From assembly GCF_004785955.1 (NCBI RefSeq), contig NZ_ML214300.1, forward strand, positions 62,001-126,000: DNA of 64,000 nt, read 5' to 3'. The translations under genes and the position numbers were made by a program. The notes beneath the pieces are model-generated. The model did not search any database. It worked only from the letters and a program-made list of their open reading frames with translations, and had not been told where the DNA came from. Below, one piece after another: positions 15,754 to 20,841 of this stretch. Each line of letters opens with the position of its first letter. Within the stretch, counting starts at the first letter, position 1. The stretch comes from Halostella litorea (GTDB taxonomy: Archaea > Halobacteriota > Halobacteria > Halobacteriales > Natronoarchaeaceae).

Positions 15754-16794
15754 TTACTCGTCGGCTGCGGCGGCCTCGGCCTCCGCCTCGTCGTTCGCCC
15801 CGCCCGCGTCGGGGTCTTCCTCGTCCGAGCGCGCCGCGACCAGCCCGCCACGCGCGACGCTGTACAGCGGCTCGCTGGCGTGGGTCACGCCGCTGATCGA
15901 GAACGGGATGTTGGCGTCCTCGAGGTGGTCACGGAACAGCTCCTCGAACCCATCGGGGCTGGAGGTGCCGCCGGTGACGACGACGGGCACGTCGAGGCCC
16001 TCCTCGACGTCCTCCTCGTCGACCTCCTGGACGACGCGCTCGATGACGTAGTCGAGCAGGTTCTCGTAGTAGATCGACAGCGCGCCCTCCACGCCGCCGA
16101 CGTCGGTCGTGAAGTCGAGTTCGAAGTCCTCCTCCTTGATGGAGGTGACCTTGTCGACGGGCGTGCCGGTCGCCTGGGCGGCCTGCTCGTCGACCCAGTC
16201 GCCGCCGCGGGCGACGGAGAACTTCATCACGGGCACCGCGTAGTACGAGAGACAGACGTTCGTCATCCCCGCGCCGAAGGAGATGCCGAGGCCGGTGAAG
16301 TTGTTGTCGGCCAGTTCGGAGTAGACGACCGCCATCCCCTCGTTGATCGGCTCGGCGTCGTACCCCATGTCGTCGAGGAACGACTCGATCGTCTTCTGGT
16401 GGTACAGCGTCGAGAGGTCCGAGTCGATGGGGTCGGCCGGCGTCGAGAAGTACAGCTTCTCGTTGGGGCGGTCGGGCTCGCCGACGACCTGCTCGATGAT
16501 GAGCTTCATCATCGGGATCGCGGACTGCTCGTCGCTGGAGAGGATCCCGTGTTTCATCGGGCGGCGCGTCTCGCGGTTGAAGATGTTGGCGAAGTTCAGG
16601 GCGTCGTCGCCGACGACGTACACCGTATCGTCCTTTCGGATGTGGAGCACTTCGCTCCGGGAGAGCATCTGCTCCGCCATGTCGGAGTACTCGATTTCCA
16701 CGAAGGAGTTGCGCTGCTGTACGAACACCGTGTCGCTTCCGTCCTGCTGGGCCGACAGGATGTTCATCGTGCCGACGTCTAGGCCTTTGGCCAT
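15754..16794 (-). CDS. Archaeal actin homologue (volactin/salactin class)
   Basis: A 346-residue protein with actin/MreB-fold signatures. Phosphate-1 is GLDVGTMN (4-11), phosphate-2 is [11 protein letters not shown] (170-180) and the adenosine loop is [10 protein letters not shown] (271-280). ARGG occurs twice (196-199, 314-317). The tail (323-346) is acidic and disordered. Haloarchaeal actins of this class form dynamic filaments and affect cell shape or partition. The start MAKGLDVG is chosen over an ATG 63 bases upstream because the fold begins there and a TATA-like box lies at the right distance. The neighbouring gene resembles the division protein CdpA. Confidence 0.85.
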
Positions 16795-16817
16795 GTGTGA
16801 TACAAGTCCACCCCCCG

Positions 16818-16826
16818 ATAATAAAT
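16818..16826 (-). promoter_or_regulatory. TATA-like box for the actin gene
   Basis: The complement reads atttattat, centred about 28 bases before the ATG at 16794, within a 130-base AT-rich gap. Confidence 0.6.
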
Positions 16827-16924
16827 CTATGCGAAAAAATTCAAGAAAACGTGTCACAGAAATTTTATTATCTCGGATCGACCGGCCGCGCTACCGAGGA
16901 ATATATTGAACTATTTCTGATACG

Positions 16925-17827
16925 TTATCCCAGGCCGAGCTTGCTCCGGAGCCGCGAGAGCAGTCCGTCCAGGCCGCCGTCGTCCGCGCTCGCGGCCTCG
17001 TCGTCCTCGCGTTTCTGCTGGCGCAGTTCGTTCAGTTTCGCCGTCTGGTCGTCGACGGTCGACTCCGAGGTGGCGGTCTTCTTCTCGCCGCCTTTCATCT
17101 GCCGGAGCCCCTGGACCTGCGAGTCGACGCCCGACGAGCGCGACGTTTCCGCCTCCACGTCCATCCCGGAGACGTCGATGTCGGTGTCGGTGTTGACCGA
17201 AATCTTCCGGCCCTCGTGTTTCTCGACGCCGCCCCACGACATGTCGACGCCCTCCATCGCGCTCTCGATGTCGGACTCGATCTGCTCGTCGGAGATCGTC
17301 TCCCCCTCGTCGTCCTCGTCCTCCGACACCTCGATGTCGCCGGGACCGGGTTTGACCTGCGCGAGCTGGTGGGCGACCAGCGCCGCGCCGGTCGCGCCGA
17401 CGACGACGGTCAGCCCGGTCGCGTACGTGGCGACGACCTCCATCGTGTAGTCCGCGCCGTAGCCGTTCCAGTCGTCGGGGTAGACGACGTTGAACCCCAC
17501 CACCGCGAGGAGGTTGATCGCGCCGCCGACGGCCGCGGCGTACTGCGCCTTCTTCTCGACGGGGAGCAACACGACGATGCCGGTCATCGCCGCCGGCAGC
17601 GACAGCATCCCGAGCGTGTACGCCGGCCCCATCCGGGCGAAGTAGGCCCCGGTGCGTGGCTCCGCCGCGCTCCCCCAGAGGAACAGCACTAACGCGATGA
17701 CTCCCAGCGCGATCCCCCCGAAGAACAGCCCGAACCCGAGGTAGACGTCCGTGCGGGCGTCCGGCTCCCCGATGTAGGTCCGGTACCACTCGAACAGTTG
17801 GTTCTCCGTTTCCGTGCGTTCGGCCAT
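16925..17827 (-). CDS. Four-helix membrane protein with disordered tail, CdpA-like
   Basis: A 300-residue protein. Residues 1-28 are cytoplasmic (QLFEWYRTYIGEPDARTDVYLG), four transmembrane helices follow (about 29-51, 70-90, 97-115, 129-152), then a long acidic, Ser/Gln-rich disordered region (160-285) and a short C-terminal amphipathic helix (DGLLSRLRSKLGLG, 287-300). This architecture resembles CdpA, a haloarchaeal midcell protein that anchors the FtsZ rings; I recall that family by architecture and cannot confirm by alignment. It lies directly upstream of the actin gene on the same strand. The chosen start is MAERTETEN; an in-frame upstream ATG adds an unlikely leader. Confidence 0.65.
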   Translation of the reverse strand: MAERTETENQLFEWYRTYIGEPDARTDVYLGFGLFFGGIALGVIALVLFLWGSAAEPRTGAYFARMGPAYTLGMLSLPAAMTGIVVLLPVEKKAQYAAAVGGAINLLAVVGFNVVYPDDWNGYGADYTMEVVATYATGLTVVVGATGAALVAHQLAQVKPGPGDIEVSEDEDDEGETISDEQIESDIESAMEGVDMSWGGVEKHEGRKISVNTDTDIDVSGMDVEAETSRSSGVDSQVQGLRQMKGGEKKTATSESTVDDQTAKLNELRQQKREDDEAASADDGGLDGLLSRLRSKLGLG

Positions 17828-20442: not shown

Positions 20443-20841
20443 ATGAGCATCGAGACCGACGCCGGCGCGGAGACCGCCGACGAGGACGTCGAAACGCTCG
20501 GCCGCGAACTGGGCGAGGCCATCGCGGACCTCCCCGAGTACCGGACCTTCGAGGAGGCGAAGGCCGCCGTCGAGGCGTCCGACGAGGCCCAGGCCAAGAT
20601 CGAGGAGTTCGAGGAGATCCGCCAGGAGTTCATGCTCGCCCGACAGACCGGCGAGGCCACGCAGGAGGACCTCCAGGAGGTCCAGCGCGCACAGCAGGAA
20701 CTCCACGGGATCCCCGTCATGTCGGAGTACCTGGAAGCCCAGAACGAACTCGACGCCCGCCTCGAAGCGGTCAACGAGGCCATCTCCGAGCCCCTCGCCG
20801 TCGACTTCGGCGAGGAGGCCGGCGGCTGCTGTCAGGACTGA
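20443..20841 (+). CDS. YlbF/YmcA family protein
   Basis: A 132-residue all-helical acidic protein matching the YlbF/YmcA (DUF964) pattern: LGEAIADLPEYRTFEEAKAAVEASDEAQ, IEEFEEIRQEFM, then LHGIPVMSEYLEAQNELDARLEAVNEAIS. It ends in GGCCQD. In Bacillus, YlbF with YmcA and YaaT forms an Fe-S-containing complex that affects RNase Y; archaea lack RNase Y, so the role here is open. The start MSIETDAG is preferred because the 38 residues before it in the open frame are low-complexity. Confidence 0.8.
   Translation: MSIETDAGAETADEDVETLGRELGEAIADLPEYRTFEEAKAAVEASDEAQAKIEEFEEIRQEFMLARQTGEATQEDLQEVQRAQQELHGIPVMSEYLEAQNELDARLEAVNEAISEPLAVDFGEEAGGCCQD

Follow-up and report, generated by a model that had tools for sequence, protein, structure and literature searches.

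A DUF7139 membrane protein that accompanies volactin across haloarchaeal genomes is a candidate membrane anchor for this actin

The gene for a haloarchaeal actin, volactin, and that for a four-helix membrane protein of the DUF7139 family, here called B, are neighbours in the window, a stretch of 64,000 nucleotides from Halostella litorea. We propose that B, encoded upstream, is a partner dedicated to volactin and most likely anchors it in the membrane, a reading that we hold at a probability of roughly 0.64. B would be held in the membrane by four transmembrane (TM) helices with both ends of the protein in the cytoplasm; conserved short motifs in its flexible tail would make the contact with volactin, probably at one end of a filament, and volactin filaments would thereby cross the cytoplasm with their tips fixed to the membrane. 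B would share an ancestral membrane module with the division protein CdpA but bear a different tail. Three of these points, namely the cytoplasmic position of the tail, direct binding between B and volactin, and attachment of the tips by B, are what we infer from the evidence below.

The two genes were found where the sequence-only reading had placed them, on a shared strand with the membrane-protein gene upstream and a gap of 130 bp between them (Table 1). That reading had assigned the actin to a volactin/salactin class, and the first half of the label is the correct one. The Pfam Volactin profile (PF25216) matched over its full length (positions 1-321 of 321) with an E-value of 2.2e-138 and 461.6 bits against a cut-off of 35. 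A salactin identity was rejected, the score against NF053533 being 14.8 bits where the equivalog cut-off is 400. Salactin of Halobacterium salinarum, whose filaments are dynamically unstable (PMC10746226), is likewise a haloarchaeal actin, but the window protein fails its model, and the synteny of salactin is poor even inside Halobacterium whereas the partner of volactin is near-constant. The volactin frame is open upstream to 16806, with the conserved start at the ATG at 16794. The product is 83% identical to volactin of Haloferax gibbonsii, and no notable difference sets it apart from Haloferax volcanii volactin (HVO_2015).

Table 1. Positions in the window of volactin, B and their predicted elements
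Feature	Coordinates	Strand	Basis or remark
Volactin, 346 aa, actin-fold filament protein	15754..16794	(-)	PF25216 full-profile match
TATA-like element TTTATTAT	16818..16825	(-)	24-31 bases 5' of volactin ATG
B, DUF7139 membrane protein, 300 aa	16925..17827	(-)	PF23600 match; ATG at 17827
B TM helix 1, residues 25-52	17672..17755	(-)	AlphaFold2 and hydropathy
B TM helix 2, residues 60-87	17567..17650	(-)	AlphaFold2 and hydropathy
B TM helix 3, residues 92-115	17483..17554	(-)	AlphaFold2 and hydropathy
B TM helix 4, residues 128-158	17354..17446	(-)	AlphaFold2 and hydropathy
B tail motif 1 SDEQIESDIESAMEGVDMSWGGVEKHEG, residues 179-206	17210..17293	(-)	Short acidic helix, then WGGV motif
B tail motifs 2 and 3 SRSSGVDSQVQGLRQMKGGEKK...STVDDQTAKLNELRQQK, residues 229-273	17009..17143	(-)	Conservation
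B C-terminal short basic helix, residues 286-296	16940..16972	(-)	AlphaFold2, pLDDT about 71

The first half of B matches PF23600 (DUF7139) with an E-value of 3.3e-48 and 163.6 bits against a cut-off of 30. An AlphaFold2 model built with 48 relatives contains four long helices (block pLDDT mostly 92-98) that coincide with four hydropathy peaks, in agreement with the four-helix membrane protein described from the sequence. Because the number of TM helices is even, the model puts the N- and C-terminus on one side of the membrane, and the positively charged loop joining helices 2 and 3 suggests that this side is the cytoplasm. The alternative that B belongs to an unrelated permease family found no backing, as matches to transporter and permease models were all sub-threshold and a PDB fold search with the model of B returned weak, generic helix-bundle matches, the best at E 0.1.

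The region after the last TM helix (residues 159-300) is acidic, with 37 D/E against 16 K/R. A long tail had been predicted correctly, but its length is about 142 rather than 125 residues and it is not disordered throughout, since AlphaFold2 predicts helices at residues 180-191, 258-282 and 286-296, with low confidence between them. Conservation is concentrated in islands, separated by poorly conserved linkers: the acidic helix followed by SWGGVEK, the pattern VDxxVxGLxxLKGG, and a helix with STVDDQTAxLxELRxQ. The first island (motif 1) has a conservation of 0.74, compared with 0.37 in the linker before it, and both of its glycines are invariant in 48 sequences; motifs 2 and 3 reach 0.77 and 0.74, and the pLDDT of helix 258-282 is about 78. 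These values (0.74-0.77) equal or exceed the range seen in the TM helices (0.59-0.75). Short islands of this kind within a flexible tail are what one expects where a conserved protein binds, and the volactins of the same genomes share 78-99% identity. The short C-terminal helix that had been described as amphipathic is also present in the model. Its LLxRxRxL pattern recurs in many relatives, and in relatives it is basic on average, with a net charge of +1.8 over the last 14 residues; amphipathy is plausible only, the hydrophobic moment of the helix showing no excess over shuffled sequence.

The distribution of the two genes ties them closely together. Among 145 haloarchaeal genomes, volactin and full-length B were both present in 85, both absent from 60, and never found one without the other. 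A clear gap separates B from everything else at the threshold used (6.5e-36 for the weakest B, 5e-28 for the best other match), and in genomes lacking volactin no match to the B query was better than 6.3e-16. Fisher's test gives 3e-42, a value overstated by the relatedness of the genomes; a safer count is that nine genera contain both states, pair present and pair absent. In relatives, too, the genes are usually neighbours: they are adjacent in 70 of the 85 genomes, always on a shared strand with B upstream, and they co-occur also where unlinked. A scan of named genomes showed the adjacent pair, with varying flanking genes, in Haloferax, Haloplanus, Halonotius, Haloquadratum, Natrialba, Natrinema, Halomarina, Halorientalis and others. 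The 52 Halorubrum genomes comprise 35 with both genes, 16 with neither and one, an assembly of 180 contigs, with B only; B and volactin are adjacent in just three. On a tree of a CdpA-type marker, presence of the pair changes about 8 times in this genus, at least four of them on well-supported branches, counts that are approximate because the tree was built from a single, fast-evolving protein of 48 genomes and two 'neither' genomes are less than 80% complete. The pairing is far beyond chance, and on these gene distributions the view that B is a functional partner of volactin is well supported.

It is also conceivable that B and volactin have no direct relation and merely travel together in a jointly inherited lifestyle or shape module, as the adjacency in most genomes and the loss of both genes by a single deletion in one genome would allow. 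We consider this very unlikely: the pair persists unlinked in Halorubrum, where both genes were lost several times, and the CdpA-type and DUF1508-type DUF7139 genes, which occur in volactin-free genomes as well, do not track volactin. Weighing against B as the volactin anchor are the facts that co-loss can be one deletion where the genes are linked, that B evolves much faster than volactin, and that the lineages are not independent samples. Speaking for it, in a genus other than Halorubrum, is a remnant frame of 153 aa (L202:3166-3624(+)) in which the beginning of B is fused with the final third of volactin, left by one deletion that took out most of both genes.

Volactin is probably transcribed from a promoter of its own into a leaderless mRNA. 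Of 95 distinct regions upstream of the volactin ATG, 85 contain a TATA-like word between -40 and -22, and A/T reaches 100% at -28 to -26. With a separate promoter probable for volactin, 'operon' would be too strong a term for the pair. This also counts against the anchor reading to some degree, as a conserved volactin promoter means that a single shared transcript is not required.

B had been likened to CdpA, which we take to be a haloarchaeal division protein thought to anchor FtsZ, and we take HVO_0739 of Haloferax volcanii to be the protein of that name. The HVO_0739 mRNA is monocistronic, about 1052 nt long, and encodes a membrane protein (PMC8406309), and CetZ2 is HVO_0745 (PMC10927574). 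Volactin-bearing Haloferax genomes encode two DUF7139 proteins, one beside volactin and one with a DUF7140 domain; in Haloferax gibbonsii the DUF7139-DUF7140 gene lies between ftsZ and CetZ genes, about five genes from CetZ. This order, matching the interval between ftsZ (HVO_0717) and CetZ2, and the fit of its coding sequence of 332 aa to the 1052-nt mRNA, suggest that it is HVO_0739, which would make CdpA a member of DUF7139.

On this basis the likeness holds as homology and fails as identity. By its DUF7139 membrane domain, about 30% identical between the two, B is a paralogue of CdpA, and both proteins combine four TM helices with a long flexible tail. The CdpA tail, however, ends in the cysteine-rich DUF7140, which is present in the CdpA-type protein of Haloferax gibbonsii; profile searches found neither DUF7140 (PF23601) nor DUF1508-type repeats in the window B, and DUF7140 is likewise absent from Haloferax and Halorubrum B. 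The window genome encodes four DUF7139 proteins, among them one with DUF7140 at its C-terminus (L002) and two with DUF1508-type repeats (L004 and L005). In a tree of 95 DUF7139 domains, the DUF7140/CdpA clade, which holds the Haloferax proteins and L002, is split off at 100/100 by a long branch, and the window B falls outside it; DUF1508-type proteins are nested among the B proteins, a finer order that is unsure given several long branches. The gene settings differ as well, the CdpA-type gene of Haloferax lying near ftsZ1 and cetZ2 and B beside volactin. CdpA orthology of B was rejected on the missing DUF7140, the separate clade and the CdpA orthologue (L002) elsewhere in the genome. Twelve near-complete haloarchaeal genomes, including all sampled members of one genus, contain no DUF7139 protein and thus no recognisable CdpA: G044, G073, G156, G208, G235, G249, G252 and G255 (g26), G182 and G276 (g65), and G194 and G225 (g33).

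The membrane domain common to B and CdpA could be taken to mean that B connects volactin with the FtsZ division ring, a link that the sequence-only reading had raised. We regard this as scarcely credible: in Haloferax volcanii the assembly and disassembly of volactin filaments do not depend on the division site (PMC10869688), B is without the DUF7140 of CdpA, and B is absent from 60 of the 145 genomes, though nearly all members of the class have some DUF7139 protein.

Attachment of volactin to the membrane fits what has been observed of its filaments. In Haloferax volcanii, volactin-GFP filaments bridge the cytoplasm and their tips touch the membrane, independently of FtsZ1, and volactin-binding factors have been postulated (PMC10869688). 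The actin-membrane tether suggested from the sequence has strong circumstantial support in co-occurrence, gene neighbourhood and tail motifs, and B would on this view tether the filaments physically. We also modelled B, linker and volactin as a single chain with AlphaFold2, reading through the natural linker with stops read as serine and using 28 in-frame relatives. This model had a mean pLDDT of 51, a pTM of 0.30 and an unfolded volactin part, probably because volactins are too alike to give the alignment depth, and it carries no information on binding.

B could instead be a membrane sensor or regulator, a partner but no tether. Its tail would then serve to nucleate, cap or take apart volactin filaments, or to signal membrane tension to them. 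Co-occurrence and tail conservation would suit any obligate partner, and volactin polymerisation looks tightly regulated and linked to responses to mechanical compression (PMC10869688, PMC7617734). Domain-profile searches, on the other hand, revealed no recognisable sensor or enzyme domain in B, and the tips of volactin filaments are visibly on the membrane (PMC10869688). Weighing these points, we judge a purely regulatory role unlikely. The presumed FtsZ-anchoring function of its homologue CdpA counts against such a role as well. SepF and FtsA are membrane anchors of FtsZ, and RodZ is a partner of MreB; B would resemble them in outline, as a link between a cytoskeletal polymer and the membrane, but is unrelated in sequence and is predicted to span the membrane several times, unlike an amphipathic-helix protein or a single-TM anchor.

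A broader reading, which we put forward tentatively and at somewhat less than even odds, is that DUF7139 proteins are modular cytoskeletal membrane anchors, in which one four-helix module carries interchangeable tails (CdpA for FtsZ, B for volactin, the DUF1508-repeat proteins for a third polymer), and that B is the volactin tip anchor and the first dedicated archaeal actin anchor. Haloarchaea would then have put a single membrane module to use twice, as an anchor for a tubulin-type and for an actin-type cytoskeleton. The DUF1508-type subfamily (L004, L005 and L203-L217) carries WRWRLRHxNGNIVADGGEGY repeats and, by analogy, might anchor another polymer.

Haloferax volcanii, which has both the volactin and the DUF7139 family according to a control search, offers a specific candidate. 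Its genes were placed through the gene order of Haloferax gibbonsii, which runs B, volactin, a small frame and then CetZ. Because this order matches volactin HVO_2015 and CetZ5 HVO_2013, the B orthologue should be HVO_2016, making it a genetically accessible candidate for membrane attachment of volactin, with unusually strong co-occurrence evidence. An incomplete search of the volactin literature, and for HVO_2016 and DUF7139 by name, brought up no description of a B-type membrane partner, and an earlier description is possible. The CetZ gene two genes downstream of Haloferax volactin (L114:6564-7931(+)), CetZ5 or HVO_2013 by order, means that genes for a tubulin-like protein, an actin and the membrane partner of that actin are clustered there. 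A proteomics study singles out three regions in which shape-related proteins are frequent, and hvo_2013-hvo_2020, which includes HVO_2015 and HVO_2013, is one of them (PMC10869688).

Two further observations concern other proteins. A giant second protein of the volactin family occurs in 25 of the 145 genomes, in each case alongside ordinary volactin; the window genome is not among them. In this protein (L198:1687-4983(-), L194:3671-7360(+), L195:3091-5994(+), L196:3470-5809(+) and L197:1745-4423(-)), an N-terminal volactin domain of 30-40% identity is followed by an acidic coiled coil several hundred residues long and two C-terminal hydrophobic segments, so that it looks like an actin with its own stalk and membrane anchor. 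In the window, positions 20443-20841(+) encode a protein of the YlbF/YmcA family that has a CC motif at its C-terminus and is related to the halo-CC-star HcsL model, although it scores below the cut-off.
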